Below, piece by piece: positions 35,210 to 63,632 of a DNA stretch of 64,000 nt (position 1 is its first letter; each line of letters opens with the position of its first letter). The position numbers and the translations under genes were made by a program. The notes below the pieces were generated by a model. The model saw nothing but the letters and a program-made list of their open reading frames with translations, did no database searches and was not told where the DNA came from. Location of the stretch: assembly GCA_012837935.1 (NCBI GenBank), contig DUQG01000016.1, forward strand, positions 62,001 through 126,000, given 5' to 3'. Origin of the DNA: Bacteroidales bacterium (GTDB lineage Bacteria; Bacteroidota; Bacteroidia; Bacteroidales; Paludibacteraceae).

Positions 35210-36334
35210 TTACCCTTCTTTTTCAACGGTTACTTTTTTACTTTCAATAATTTCTGCTCCGCGAATTTCCTGTCCTTTTTTCAATCCTTCTTTTATCTCG
35301 ATATTGATACCGTCTGAAAGACCGATTTTAACAGGTGTTTTCTTAAATTCTTGCGGTTCTTTTTTGGTTAACACCTGCACGAAAGCACTGTCGCCACTAA
35401 ATTCCACGCAACTTTCGGGTACGGTCAGTACATCTGCCGCTTGTTGCAGTAGAATTTCGGCATTGGCGCTGTATCCGGCTCGAATAAATACGCCAGACGG
35501 CACTTTTACGCGTGCTTTCATCTCAAACATAACGGCTCCGCTCTCTTCTTTTCCCTTCGGGGAAATGTATTCCAATTCAGCCGTCAGTTTAAAGTCCTGC
35601 AATGCTCCAATCGTAATGTTCATCGGCATTCCGTTGTGGATACGACCGATTTCCGTTTCGTCCAATTTTCCGATAAAAAGCATATCGTTCATATTGGCAA
35701 CAGTAGCAATGGTGGTTCCGTCGTTGAAGTTATTGGACTGAATAACCGAATTTCCCACTTTTATAGGCACATCCAGAATTGTTCCCGTAACGGTAGAGCG
35801 AACCAGCGTATTACTGTACGATGCTGTACGGCTCGAAATTCCGTCACGAACAAGGCTTAGATTGTCCTCTGCCGATTTCAATTCTTCTTTGTTGTTGTTC
35901 ATTTGTAGCGTTGATTTTTCAAATTCCTCTTTGGAAATCACTTTTTTCTCAAAGAGTTCTTTGTCGCGGTTATACACGTTGAGTGCCTGCTCGTAACTAA
36001 GTTTTGCCAACTGTACACGCGATTCAGCCGAGTTTAAGTTAACCAAATCGGGTATTACCTTGATTTTTGCAATTACATCGCCTGCCTTTACTTGGTCGCC
36101 GGCTTCGCGATAAACTTCGGAAATAATTCCCGACATCTGCGGTTTAATCAAAATTTCGTTGCGTGGTTCTACTTTTCCGGTTGCAACGGTGCGTTTTTCA
36201 ATAGTTCCGACAGCTACTTGCTCAATTTTGTAGGTCGTAACTTTGGGTTTCGACTTTTGATACAAAAAGTACAGGGTGGCAATAAACACCAAGCCGAGAA
36301 TAACCCATAAGGAAATTTTTAGAATCTTTTTCAT
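35210..36334 (-). CDS. Periplasmic adaptor, HlyD/MacA family
   Basis: 374 residues: one N-terminal TM anchor (~5-24), a split biotinyl-lipoyl hybrid (RTVATGKVEPRNEILIKPQMSGIISEVYREAGDQVKAGDVI), and an alpha-hairpin (~95-165). A beta-barrel domain and a membrane-proximal domain complete it. It bridges the ABC permeases to TolC. The nearest gene upstream (permease 2) is 174 bp away because an inverted-repeat element sits between them. Confidence 0.95.
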   Translation of the reverse strand: MKKILKISLWVILGLVFIATLYFLYQKSKPKVTTYKIEQVAVGTIEKRTVATGKVEPRNEILIKPQMSGIISEVYREAGDQVKAGDVIAKIKVIPDLVNLNSAESRVQLAKLSYEQALNVYNRDKELFEKKVISKEEFEKSTLQMNNNKEELKSAEDNLSLVRDGISSRTASYSNTLVRSTVTGTILDVPIKVGNSVIQSNNFNDGTTIATVANMNDMLFIGKLDETEIGRIHNGMPMNITIGALQDFKLTAELEYISPKGKEESGAVMFEMKARVKVPSGVFIRAGYSANAEILLQQAADVLTVPESCVEFSGDSAFVQVLTKKEPQEFKKTPVKIGLSDGINIEIKEGLKKGQEIRGAEIIESKKVTVEKEG

Positions 36335-36379: not shown

Positions 36380-36472
36380 TTTAGTCGCACCCCGAGTATA
36401 AGGCGTTTCTTTGATGTCTAATTTATTTTTTCTCATTATGCCGTGAAAAGTTCGACTCGGGGTGCGACTAAA
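36380..36472. repeat. TAGTCGCACCCCGA inverted-repeat element, copy A
   Basis: An 18-bp perfect inverted repeat (36380-36397 and 36455-36472; core TTAGTCGCACCCCGAGT) brackets a 57-bp AT-rich interior. The same ends recur at 63173-63264 with an unrelated interior. It lies within the efflux operon between permease 2 and the adaptor. Confidence 0.85.
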
Positions 36473-36508
36473 AACATCCAACACCCCACATCTGGCATCC
36501 AGCATCCA

Positions 36509-37840
36509 TCAATTCTCATCTCTAATTGCTTCGATGGCTTTAATATCCACCGCTCTTTTTGCCGGAATAAGTCCTGCTAATGTTCCAATTATCAGAATAA
36601 CCATAAGTCCGCCAACTGCCACACTAAAACTGATTTGCGGGTTTTTAAGGAAAAAATCGGTGTCGCGGGTTACAATTTCGATAATTTGCAAAATTCCAAC
36701 GCCTAACAACATGCCGAAAACTCCGGCTATTAAAGTCAAAATCACACTTTCCGTCATAATCTGTCGCATGATATTGCCCGGTGTGGCTCCCAAAGCCCGT
36801 TTAATACCAATCTCTTTGGTTCGCTCCCGAACGGTTACCAGCATAATATTGCTCACACCGATTCCGCCCGCCATCAATGTGCCTAAGCCCACAATCCAAA
36901 TTAAAATGCTGATTCCCAAGCCTAAATAAAGAAACATGGTAAACATATCTTCCATATTCATAGAAAAAACAGCTGTTTTGTCGGTAGGCGAAATATCGTG
37001 AAGTTTTTTCAACTCGTCTTGCACTGCTTTTTCTACCGTGCTTACTTTTACACCCGGATTGGCTGTGATAGCTAAAAAGTGAACAATATTTCCCTGATTA
37101 AAAGCCTGTTGCATGGTTGAGAAAGGTAGTATAATGGTCTCTTCCGCCCTTCCACCGATATTAATATTCGATGAATTTCCGGTAACTCCTACCACCTGAA
37201 AATAGATTCCGTTCAGTCGTATGGTTTTTCCCAGCGGATTTTCGCCGTTGTTAAAAAGCACTTCATAAACCCGTTTTCCGATTACACACACTTTTCGTTT
37301 TTCGGCTATGTCAATATCGTTGATAAATCTACCGTAAGTCATTTTGTTTCGGTCAATTTCATTGTAGTTCGGAAAAACTCCTTTTGAGTTGAAAGAACCT
37401 GATTTTTCGCCCCGAATTACATTTGAACGGTTGCCGAAAAGCACGGGGGAAAGGTATTGCATTTCCGGAATTTTTTGTTCCAAAATAGGTAAATCCGAGT
37501 TTACAATATCCCACGAACGTCCTTTTTTGAAACCTTTGTAGGGTTCGGAAGTGGTAGCTGTACCTACAAAACATGAGTTGGTAGCAAATCCTTCAATTTC
37601 CTGTTGCATCCCTTTTTGCAGCGAATCGCCGGCGCCCACCATAATCACAAGCATAAACATTCCCCAAAACACACCAAATGCAGTCAGTATGCTTCTCGAT
37701 TTGTTTTGCGTGATAGCTTGCCAAATCTCCTGCCATCGGTCGATGTCAAAAATGCCTGCACCTCTAACTTTCTCCCAAAATGTGCTTTTTCGTGAAATTT
37801 GTTGTTGTCTTTCAAAAGAATTATTATCCTTTGCTTTCAT
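36509..37840 (-). CDS. ABC transporter permease, MacB type (second)
   Basis: 443 residues from MKAKDNNSF; the open frame extends 17 codons further upstream, but that segment is not family-like. TM1 follows NKSRSILTAFGVFWGMFMLVIMVGAG; a MacB periplasmic core domain spans ~85-300; the C-terminal FtsX domain has three TM segments with VRERTKEIGIKRALGATPG. MacB-like exporters move antibiotics, peptides or lipoproteins by mechanotransmission. No ATPase domain is fused; the separate ATPase is at 39389. It is paralogous to the next permease upstream. Confidence 0.93.
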   Translation of the reverse strand: MKAKDNNSFERQQQISRKSTFWEKVRGAGIFDIDRWQEIWQAITQNKSRSILTAFGVFWGMFMLVIMVGAGDSLQKGMQQEIEGFATNSCFVGTATTSEPYKGFKKGRSWDIVNSDLPILEQKIPEMQYLSPVLFGNRSNVIRGEKSGSFNSKGVFPNYNEIDRNKMTYGRFINDIDIAEKRKVCVIGKRVYEVLFNNGENPLGKTIRLNGIYFQVVGVTGNSSNINIGGRAEETIILPFSTMQQAFNQGNIVHFLAITANPGVKVSTVEKAVQDELKKLHDISPTDKTAVFSMNMEDMFTMFLYLGLGISILIWIVGLGTLMAGGIGVSNIMLVTVRERTKEIGIKRALGATPGNIMRQIMTESVILTLIAGVFGMLLGVGILQIIEIVTRDTDFFLKNPQISFSVAVGGLMVILIIGTLAGLIPAKRAVDIKAIEAIRDEN

Positions 37841-37960
37841 TATTTTATATGATTTATCGTATTTTACCATTAAGAGATTAAGATTTTTCATTAAGTTTGT
37901 CTTAATGCCTCTAAACTCCTTAAAAATCTCAATGGTTTTCTATCTTTTTCAAAACTCGTA

Positions 37961-60500: not shown

Positions 60501-62051
60501 ATGAAAAAAATTATTTTTATTTTTACCGTTGTTGCTTTACTTGTTACAGGCTGTAAATCAACAAAATCCGACCTTCCACGTGTAGCCATAGCCGGAATTG
60601 CCATCGAGTGTAGTACATTTTCTCCTGCTATTTCTGATTCGGCAGCATTTCCACTACGTATTGGTGATAGTATTTTTTCTTATTACAATTTCTTTGTTCC
60701 CGACTCGGGTGTAGTCCAACGTGCCGAATGGGTGCCAACGCTTCGCACTCACGCTATGCCGGGCGGAATTGTAAAACGAGATGTGTATGAAAATATGGTA
60801 AACAAAACTCTGAAAATGCTAAAAGAATCACTGCCGATTGATGGACTGTTTTTTGATATTCACGGTGCTATGAGTGTACAAGGTTTGGAAGACCCAGAAG
60901 GTGATTTTATCGTTCGCATTCGTGAAGTGATTGGTGATGAAGTGCTTATTTCTACTTCGATGGACTTGCACGGCAGCGTTTCGCCACGCTTGATTAAAAA
61001 CACCGACTTGATAACTTGCTACCGATTAGCACCGCACGAAGATGCTATGATTTCTAAAAAACGTGCTTTAACTAATCTGCTGGACAGATTGGAAAACGGA
61101 AAAGACAAACCCGCTTACAAAGCTTGGATACCTGTTCCGATTTTATTACCCGGCGAGAAAACAAGTACTCGCATTGAACCCGGGAAAACACTTTACGAAC
61201 AAATACCAACAGTTATTGATGGTGATAATGTAATTGATGCTTCCATCTGGATGTCGTATCCGTGGGCAGATGAGCTAAGAAATCACGGTGTGGTGGTGGC
61301 TTACGGCGACGATAAAGAAGCTGTGGGAAAAGCCGCAGAGAAACTCGCAAAACATTTCTGGGATGTGCGTGATAAATTTGAGTTTGTGGCGCCTACTGAT
61401 TATTTGCCGGCTTGTATTGATTTGGCACTAAAAAGTACTGAAAAGCCTTTTATTATCAGCGATATGGGCGATAACCCAACAGCAGGTGGTGCCGGGGATG
61501 TTACTTGGACATTGACCGAATTGCTTAAACGTCCGGAATTTAAAAACGAAAATGGGAAAAGTGTGATTTATGCTTCTTTGCCAGATGCTGAATTTGTGGA
61601 AAAAGCCAAAGCAATAGGTGTTGGCGGCAAAATTGATGCTACCGCCGGTGCTCGTGTGGATAACCGCTACGCTCCGCCCGTTCGTCTAAACGGAACCATC
61701 ATAAACATTGCTGATGACGATACAGAAAACACGCTTGTAACCGTAAAAGTAGGAAGTATTTCTGTGATTGTTACCGCAAAACGCAAGGCTTTCCACTACG
61801 AAAAATGGTTCACTTTGGCAGGATTACAACCGAGAGAAACGGATATTTTGGTGGTAAAAATCGGTTATCTTGTTCCTGAACTTTACGATATGCGAAAAGG
61901 TTGGATTATGGCACTTACACCGGGTGGTGTTGACCAAGATTTGTTGCGCTTGCCTTATAAAAATCTTAATCGTCCAATTTATCCGCTTGATAAAGATATG
62001 GCGAATCCGGATTTAAGTGCACAGTTTATTCCGTTGGCGAATGAAAAGTAG
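60501..62051 (+). CDS. M81-family metallopeptidase (MlrC-like) lipoprotein
   Basis: 516 residues. MKKIIFIFTVVALLVTGCKS is a lipoprotein signal with lipobox TGC. The M81 body follows at once: RVAIAGIAIECSTFSPA with the conserved Glu, DGLFFDIHGAMSVQGLEDPEGD, ISTSMDLHGSVSPRL (DxH) and YRLAPHEDA, which supply the Asp/His metal ligands of the MlrC family. The C-terminal MlrC domain has SDMGDNPTAGGAGDVTWTL. MlrC cleaves small modified peptides (microcystin breakdown products). A lipid-anchored envelope location is unusual for the family as I know it. Confidence 0.9.
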   Translation: MKKIIFIFTVVALLVTGCKSTKSDLPRVAIAGIAIECSTFSPAISDSAAFPLRIGDSIFSYYNFFVPDSGVVQRAEWVPTLRTHAMPGGIVKRDVYENMVNKTLKMLKESLPIDGLFFDIHGAMSVQGLEDPEGDFIVRIREVIGDEVLISTSMDLHGSVSPRLIKNTDLITCYRLAPHEDAMISKKRALTNLLDRLENGKDKPAYKAWIPVPILLPGEKTSTRIEPGKTLYEQIPTVIDGDNVIDASIWMSYPWADELRNHGVVVAYGDDKEAVGKAAEKLAKHFWDVRDKFEFVAPTDYLPACIDLALKSTEKPFIISDMGDNPTAGGAGDVTWTLTELLKRPEFKNENGKSVIYASLPDAEFVEKAKAIGVGGKIDATAGARVDNRYAPPVRLNGTIINIADDDTENTLVTVKVGSISVIVTAKRKAFHYEKWFTLAGLQPRETDILVVKIGYLVPELYDMRKGWIMALTPGGVDQDLLRLPYKNLNRPIYPLDKDMANPDLSAQFIPLANEK

Positions 62052-62141: not shown

Positions 62142-63164
62142 ATGTTTATCAAAGAAGAAATAATTGATCTTTTTCGCTTTTTAAGAAAGCCAAAAGATGC
62201 AGCTTTAAGAGATGCACCCACTTCTAAAAAATGGAAACTCTGGACAACAACTTTACTTCTAGAACTTGTTTTTAGCACTATTATAGTCGTCTTGCTTGCT
62301 TTGCTGGATAGTTTTGTCGTGCCATTAGATTATACAGATTCACTTTTAGAAGAGCATATAATCGTAGTTTTCTTAGCAATGTGTGTTTTTGCACCACTTA
62401 TTGAAGAATTTATTTTCAGGCTTCCGCTTAGGTATCGCAACAATTATATTTTCCAACTTATTGATAAGTTTACAAAAAGAAGACTTGTCCGATTTTGGTA
62501 TAAGCATTACGGGGTTTTCTTTTATGCTTTTGCCATAGCTTTTGGACTTATTCATATTACTAATTACAACAACAACTCATTCATCTTTTATGCTTTTGCT
62601 CCAATCATAGTAGGTTCTCAGATTTTTGATGGTTTAGTCATGGGTTACACACGTGTAAGATTAGGATTTTGGTGGGGTGTTCTCCAACATAGTGCTTTTA
62701 ATTTTATGCTGTTTCTACTGCCCCTGACATTATTCAACACAGACACAAAAATTGACATACAGAACAAAGGTAGAATTGAAAGTTTAAAATTGGAAGAAGT
62801 TGAGTTTAGAACGGGAAGCAAAGAAAAAGATATTCGTTTACATTCTTATATGCTTATAGAAAAAAAAGGTGATAGCTTCTATACTTTTGATAGTTTGCAA
62901 TACCATGAAATAAAAATAAAATATATGTCATTAAAAAGGCTTATTGACGAAATTGCCAATCAGCCAATAAATATAGCAAAAGACAGCCTTTCTTACTATG
63001 CAAAACCAGAAAATGGACACAAATATCAGCTTTTGGATAATAATGTCTTGGTTAATTTTCACTTAAAAGCCAAAGAACCGATTTTGGTAGATGAGATAAT
63101 GGATATTATTGCCAAAGAATATGATATTGAGATTGTGAAAGACACGGCTCGAATTGGTGAGTAG
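62142..63164 (+). CDS. CPBP-family intramembrane metalloprotease
   Basis: 340 residues. About six TM segments in the first 210 residues carry the CPBP motifs: EEFIFRLPLR (EExxxR, motif 1, ~87-96), FGLIHITNY (motif 2 His) and LQHSAFNFML (motif 3 HxxxN). The soluble C-terminal ~130 residues (LEEVEFRTGSKEKDIRLHSYML onward) are unrecognised and may be a periplasmic or cytosolic sensor part. The family is related to Rce1 prenyl-proteases and to bacteriocin self-immunity proteins. Confidence 0.9.
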   Translation: MFIKEEIIDLFRFLRKPKDAALRDAPTSKKWKLWTTTLLLELVFSTIIVVLLALLDSFVVPLDYTDSLLEEHIIVVFLAMCVFAPLIEEFIFRLPLRYRNNYIFQLIDKFTKRRLVRFWYKHYGVFFYAFAIAFGLIHITNYNNNSFIFYAFAPIIVGSQIFDGLVMGYTRVRLGFWWGVLQHSAFNFMLFLLPLTLFNTDTKIDIQNKGRIESLKLEEVEFRTGSKEKDIRLHSYMLIEKKGDSFYTFDSLQYHEIKIKYMSLKRLIDEIANQPINIAKDSLSYYAKPENGHKYQLLDNNVLVNFHLKAKEPILVDEIMDIIAKEYDIEIVKDTARIGE

Positions 63165-63172
63165 TGTTAATA

Positions 63173-63264
63173 TTAGTCGCACCCCGAATAATGCTTTTAT
63201 CAAAAGTAAAAAGTAGGACGAAACTACTTAACCTGATAAGCAAATCAACTCGGGGTGCGACTAT
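63173..63264. repeat. TAGTCGCACCCCGA inverted-repeat element, copy B
   Basis: A perfect 14-bp inverted repeat TAGTCGCACCCCGA (63174-63187) / TCGGGGTGCGACTA (63250-63263). The interior has inner GCTTTTATCA/TGATAAGC and AAGTAG/CTACTT pairs. Ends match copy A at 36380-36472; the interior does not. Confidence 0.85.
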
Positions 63265-63278
63265 TTATAACGGAACAA

Positions 63279-63632
63279 TTACTTCAATAATTCCGTCCAT
63301 TCTTCTTCTTTGAAACCCACTAAAACCCTATCGCCTGCAAGCAATACCGGACGTTTTACAAACATTCCATCCGAAGTCAAAATTTCAAGCAATTCGTTTT
63401 CTGGCAAGGTTTTTACTTTCTCTTTTATATTATTTTCCCTATACAGCAATCCGCTTGTATTGAACCACTTATTAATGGGAAGTCCACTCTTTTCTTTCCA
63501 AAGTTTCAACTCGTTGAAACTTGGATTTTCTTCTTTAATCGGACGATAAGTATATTCTATCCCATTTTCTTTAAGCCATTTTTCGGCTTTACGGCAAGTT
63601 CCGCATTTGGTATAACAAAGAATTGTGATCAT
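63279..63632 (-). CDS. ArsC/Spx/YffB-family protein
   Basis: 117 residues with a thioredoxin-like fold. Begins ITILCYTKCGTCRKAEKWL; the C9-G-T-C12 pair (from CGTC) sits where ArsC/Spx proteins have CxxC or CxxS. Also GLPINKWFNTSGLLYR and VKRPVLLAGDRVLVGFKEEEW, the family cis-Pro and C-terminal blocks. It may be a glutaredoxin-dependent arsenate reductase or a redox regulator of the YffB/MgsR type; no ars genes are nearby. Confidence 0.9.
   Translation of the reverse strand: MITILCYTKCGTCRKAEKWLKENGIEYTYRPIKEENPSFNELKLWKEKSGLPINKWFNTSGLLYRENNIKEKVKTLPENELLEILTSDGMFVKRPVLLAGDRVLVGFKEEEWTELLK

Follow-up and report, generated by a model that had tools for sequence, protein, structure and literature searches.

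A probable family of small TA-ended mobile repeats with conserved inverted ends and divergent interiors in a Paludibacteraceae genome

Two short elements in one stretch of Bacteroidales DNA, copies A and B, carry the same inverted ends around different interiors. Are they mobile DNA of the MITE/REPIN-like kind, or are they structural modules selected for their stems, as the first-pass annotation framed the choice? Copy A adds a second question, since it lies inside an operon and was suggested as a possible tuner of the ratio of the two products encoded beside it. The stretch analyzed, hereafter the window, is 64,000 nucleotides long and corresponds to positions 62001–126000 of contig C37 in a genome (G000) of 2.8 Mb, 85 contigs and 99.3% completeness.

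The near-perfect sharing of the ends was confirmed at the level of exact identity. Thus, the window contains the 14-bp sequence TAGTCGCACCCCGA four times, each element having it at both ends in inverted orientation (36382–36395/36457–36470 and 63174–63187/63250–63263); with up to 3 mismatches it has six matches against 1.8 expected, a number reached by none of 100 shuffles. The view of two ~90-bp elements holds as well, with bounds that lie 1–2 bp inside those first proposed (Table 1). Copy A indeed sits in an operon, with a MacB/FtsX permease on one side and the HlyD adaptor belonging to it on the other; provided that transcription runs through the operon, the mRNA must include the element. 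The closest named relatives of the permease are from uncultured Paludibacteraceae/Paludibacter-type Bacteroidales.

Table 1. Positions in the window of the two elements, their ends and the adjoining genes
Feature	Coordinates	Strand	Remarks
Copy A	36382..36470	- (probable, weak)	89 bp; covariance model 67.2 bits, E 1.3e-10; was in the model
Copy A, one 16-bp end, TAGTCGCACCCCGAGT	36382..36397		
Copy A, other 16-bp end, inverted	36455..36470		
Copy B	63174..63263	+	90 bp; covariance model 84.2 bits, E 2.4e-14; was in the model
Copy B, left 16-bp end	63174..63189		
Copy B, right 16-bp end, inverted	63248..63263		
MacB_PCD/FtsX permease	36509..37891	-	Operon, upstream of copy A
HlyD-type adaptor	35210..36334	-	Operon, downstream of copy A
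Rce1-like CAAX protease family gene	62142..63164	+	Ends 9 bp before copy B
ArsC-family gene	63279..63632	-	Convergent; ends 15 bp after copy B

The two copies are far from alone in their genome. The 12-base core of the end, GTCGCACCCCGA, has 25 matches there at up to 1 mismatch, compared with one for the same pattern reversed, which served as the control; 24 of the 25 belong to elements or one-ended remnants, and only C46 falls outside them, with no partner. A covariance model built from 13 copies (C23, C71a, C18 and C47 were outside it) finds 17 places, 15 of them at E ≤ 1e-9 and two weak (C18, 0.02; C47, 0.06). The search for paired ends across the genome, proposed as the first check, therefore yields multiple copies, and the case of only two copies, which would have spoken against mobility, does not apply. 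Four remnants with one good end each (C53, C59:115761, C33 and C35:131050) are not among the 17. When 3 mismatches are allowed, G000 has 53 single ends against 15 for the control, and the congener G006 has 35 against 26; more decayed copies may be hidden among those without a partner.

Outside this genome the family is rare. The covariance model finds five places in G006 and one in the congener G005; the five remaining congeners have none, nor do two genomes from other families. Over the bacterial family, 3 of 358 genomes match the model, in a search with stricter filters and 12 candidates scored per genome that misses weaker copies, and 2 of the 358 match a strict two-ended pattern, which is found in none of the genome_contigs or viral_contigs sequences. 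The 12-mer alone, at 1 mismatch, is frequent elsewhere, and in most relatives about as frequent as the control. A plasmid search returned no match over 80% of the query, and the matches listed were short pieces at E 0.2–0.5. Likewise, 78 permease loci of other genomes hold no paired ends, only isolated ends at 2–3 mismatches in seven of them, and the covariance model has no match in the 30 of these loci to which it was applied.

A typical copy consists of TAGTCGCACCCCGAGT, about 57 bp of interior, and then ACTCGGGG[C/T]GCGACTA, and so starts and ends with TA. The length is narrowly distributed (mean 89.6 bp, s.d. 2.0; range 83–93 bp), with 14 of 17 copies at 88–91 bp. GCACCCC is the usual reading of the left end, GCGCCCC that of the right end when reversed; among 21 aligned copies, 15 leave pair 8 of the stem unpaired. 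The interiors are A/T-rich. Among 15 copies, a set that excludes the degraded C18 and C47 and takes copy A in direct orientation, the mean pairwise identity is 90% for the ends and 50% for the interiors, the latter against 30–34% in ten sets with shuffled interiors. The interiors of copies A and B do look unrelated (30% identity), as had been claimed, but this does not extend to the family, whose interiors have drifted into subfamilies: C39/C73/C81, C11b/C59a/C59c/C23/C71a and C84/C11a/C5/C18 form groups. The interior of copy B clearly belongs to the family, with C11a as its nearest member (z 5.9). That of copy A, in direct orientation, scores no better than chance (mean z 0.3); when reversed, it resembles best, if weakly, C73, C39 and C81 (z 2.5, 2.4 and 1.8; mean 0.5), suggesting, without proving, that copy A is an inverted member of that group. 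By the same weak comparison its family orientation is probably the minus strand, that of the operon.

Because the ends are alike while the interiors differ, the ends must be under continuing selection in many separate lineages. For mobile units, such selection would amount to continued transposition that needs the ends only, as is argued for REPINs (PMC3116915). The narrow spread in length points to a role for the spacing of the ends as well.

Comparison of orthologous junctions provides a second line of evidence. At the copy A junction, permease and adaptor are found without the element in 5/5 readable congeners, G004 and G006 (two of the seven) giving no match. It is absent from the ispH (LytB family)–pfkA junction in 7/7 congeners and from the 3′ end of folK in 6/6 readable ones, the contig of the seventh ending there; in G001, only 1 bp separates the folK stop from the convergent one. 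In the interval from panD to the adjoining DFP-domain gene, G006, the one congener looked at, has 11 bp, compared with 169 bp including the element in G000. At the ~70–78% identity of gene DNA in these comparisons, alignment fails between genes, leaving the exact empty site unreadable. The empty sites looked for in relatives were thus found as absence at four junctions, not as exact empty-site alleles. Since the element is missing from every readable congener at all four, it represents DNA that was inserted, not a control element inherited from an ancestor. Furthermore, no filled site common to G000 and either G006 or G005 was seen when the loci of their copies were set against those of G000.

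None of the 17 copies interrupts a recognized protein domain, in a window of which genes cover about 85%. The neighbors are functionally mixed, including pfkA, argS, folK, panD, rlmN, a TetR regulator and a GH20 gene among others; some copies lie between convergent genes, and copies other than A show no preference for an orientation or a gene function. By our own reading of the 12 copies between tandem genes, seven point with the genes and five against, the orientation of copy A being weak. The extragenic status of two copies is ambiguous. At C73, the frame of an AraC-type (AraC-binding-domain) regulator runs through the element without a stop (L069:3980-4711), so that translation beginning upstream could read the element as protein; an ATG follows the element, however, and the regulator domain starts about 57 residues past its end. 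C18 sits among overlapping frames without tested function. Short mechanical frames also overlap C39, C81 and C71b. At C71a, the TAG at the end of the element is the stop codon of folK (L076:2626-2628, G000:C71), and the C-terminal end of the folK product differs from that of the congeners. By eye, terminator-like hairpins with T runs lie within tens of bases of C39, C59:115761, C33, C35:131050 and C11b, whereas C18 has a plain hairpin; the impression is as if insertions clustered next to terminators.

The flanks may hint at the target. Direct repeats outside the element do not exceed chance, except for 3–4 bp at one copy; the terminal TA is compatible with a 2-bp duplication but could instead be end sequence. 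Candidate target-site duplications, another mark looked for, would thus be limited to this TA and the single exception. T occupies position −3 of the left flank in 15/17 copies (p 1.9e-6, uncorrected for 120 tests), and when both flanks are pooled outward, G at −8 (16/34) and T at −3 (23/34) stand out. Two readings fit this signal: a target with partial symmetry about TA, or an element end that extends slightly further out.

Taken together, the copies throughout the genome, their absence at readable congeneric junctions and their placement outside recognized domains favor the MITE/REPIN-like branch of the original alternative, and we consider it quite probable that the elements are a family of small, ~90-bp, TA-ended, non-autonomous mobile DNA. 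A transposase acting in trans would recognize only the two ends and their spacing, and would insert the unit at TA-containing, T-rich intergenic sites, with any interior tolerated. Continued movement from several source lineages would keep the ends alike while the interiors diverge, as has been argued for REPINs.

Which enzyme would mobilize them is a separate matter. The Y1_Tnp, DDE_3 and DDE_Tnp_1 loci of the three element-bearing draft genomes (G000, G005 and G006) were covered, and the transposase with matching ends that was sought does not appear among them. Of the possible origins, a plausible one, though we stop short of calling it likely, is a MITE of a TA-duplicating DDE insertion sequence whose full copy has been lost or left unassembled. 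DDE groups that duplicate TA include the IS630 type and the TA-target group of IS5. The TA at both ends and a flank preference partly symmetric about it would fit, the T at −3 being mostly one-sided, however. TA-terminated bacterial MITEs are known, for example RUP with IS630-Spn1 (PMC2229807). Against this, the IS630-type domain DDE_3 has no match in the three genomes, and none of 14 DDE_Tnp_1 loci holds an element end at up to 3 mismatches within ~1.5 kb (less at contig ends). It is possible that an insertion sequence copy is collapsed or missing in the draft genome. Two candidates near transposases were rejected. A weak model match beside a transposase of G006 (L126, E 0.14) was set aside because its sequence lacks the element ends, and a relative of the L121 transposase lies ~2.7 kb from C71b (L076:18725-19387), with no end at up to 3 mismatches in its locus (L134).

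That the elements are REPINs proper, with the 16-bp ends acting as REPs that a RAYT tyrosine transposase moves in single-stranded form, appears unlikely. REPINs of Pseudomonas fluorescens SBW25 are described in PMC3116915 as two invariant 16-mers, with first residues 71 bp apart in group GI; the present elements likewise have paired, inverted, invariant 16-mers at a near-fixed spacing (74 bp in a 90-bp copy), are extragenic and dispersed, and leave one-ended remnants. The arms, however, are not REP hairpins, having an internal palindrome of 3 bp only (TCG/CGA) and no constant GTAG foot. Nor was a RAYT with matching repeats found. Pfam Y1_Tnp has seven matches in G000, four in G005 and one in G006; two of the seven are RAYT-like, judging from NHFH/NHVH and NP motifs and the Y1 motif classes of PMC6006769. 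The end core at up to 2 mismatches is absent within ~1.5 kb (less at contig ends) of all seven, as it is from the Y1_Tnp loci L055, L057 and L061; isolated 2-mismatch cores without a partner at two G005 loci (L054 and L059) were taken as chance. Both RAYT-like genes were rejected as mobilizers, for they are flanked by other repeats, neither resembling the element. Thus, one (G000:C61:22735-22905, L063) has GGCGGGATTTGTAATCCCGCC / GGGATTATAAATCCC repeats of the GGGATT...AATCCC type on both sides, and the other (G000:C50:27838-28059, L064) is flanked by GGACAGYCGRTTTCCYAAYCGRCTG hairpins, apparently that gene's own REP family; these covarying hairpins, ~22 bp long and of the GACAG[CT]CG[AG]TTTCC[CT]AA[CT]CG[AG]CTG type, occur several times on both sides. 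A truncated relative of the C61 gene, with similar repeats upstream, was noted in G006 (C124, L055).

We offer a third origin tentatively, as a rather improbable one: an enzyme that is neither a RAYT nor a recognizable parental insertion sequence transposase might drive a REPIN-like population. It would read 16-bp ends ~74 bp apart, about seven helical turns, with only the ends and the spacing inherited and several interior lineages coexisting.

By contrast with these mobile origins, it is very unlikely that the elements are modules of structural RNA or protein binding, retained at their sites for the stem and tuning their neighbors. Copies A and B do fold strongly (z −6.5 to −8.0 over both strands; copy A as RNA, z −6.5), and in three pairs both partners have changed, as at position 15, which is A-U in C84 and C-G in C71b. 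These pairs lend weak support to selection on the stem, as 67 of 500 shuffles reach the same count; the other four covariation measures are reached by 18–30 of 500. For sequences that are related, covariation on this scale is modest; pair 8, as noted above, is mostly open. Because the covariation is matched by some shuffles, the neighbors are unrelated and the orientations are mixed, selection of an RNA stem place by place is the less likely course, and the absence from readable congeners at four junctions also stands against it. Searched with Rfam, the window gives two tRNAs only, with no match to the element at gathering score; copy A as the query draws just two microRNA models, both falling far short of the gathering score. 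A scan for terminator-like sites at copy A was negative. A putative effect of copy A on the permease-to-adaptor ratio is possible. For the mobile family favored here, copy A would be carried as a hairpin in the transporter mRNA with at most incidental effects, a caution that a hairpin inside an operon need not be a dedicated regulatory device.

Invertible promoter switches are known in Bacteroidales, the order of the host, and inverted ends ~90 bp apart, the same at several loci, could suggest segments flipped by a recombinase. We regard this as most improbable: in 15 of 21 copies the ends differ from each other at the fixed pair 8, copies also lie between convergent genes, and a scan around copy A, for E. 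coli-type promoters only, gave one site against 1.2 in shuffles. Integron attC sites were dropped, the core motif by which attC is recognized being absent.

How do the elements compare with other small repeats? RUP, Correia/NEMIS and ERIC elements are similar in their ~100-bp scale, TA termini, A+T richness, hairpin formation and intergenic location (PMC2229807); they differ in that no parental insertion sequence was found here and that the interiors here are far more diverged than the ends. This is a comparison of features, the sequences having been compared through library searches only. The TIR repeats associated with TIRYTs share G-rich inverted ends, dispersal and moderate abundance, according to PMC3733652 and PMC6006769; the ends here read GGGGTGCG or GGGGCGCG in place of the GGGGWSAS motif given there, and no Y1 gene lies between paired ends. 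Within the Bacteroidetes, MITECca01 of Cardinium is likewise a lineage-specific, mostly intergenic MITE, derived from IS982, with 240 bp, 169 copies and its parental insertion sequence present (PMC9769881), and BrickBuilt MITEs are mentioned in a P. gingivalis paper (PMC5771137). In the open-licence literature searched, neither the exact end sequence nor, among reports on Bacteroidales/Bacteroidetes MITEs and REPINs, a description of this family was found.

The elements thus display the generic features of a MITE apart from a parental insertion sequence and an established target duplication: they are short non-coding units with terminal inverted repeats, dispersed copies and absence at orthologous sites. 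As these are present, whereas REP palindromes, a cognate RAYT and the TIRYT motif were not found, we place the elements in a new family of small mobile repeats, non-autonomous and lineage-restricted, of a well-known kind, whose mobilizer did not appear among the loci covered. The family adds to a little-studied Bacteroidales lineage, and its conserved ends and spacing around free interiors make it a test case for persistence without a visible transposase. Finally, short tandem AACATCCAAACAACC-like runs were seen by eye to adjoin several elements directly, at 36474–36510 of the window and in the flanks of C5, C59a and C84.
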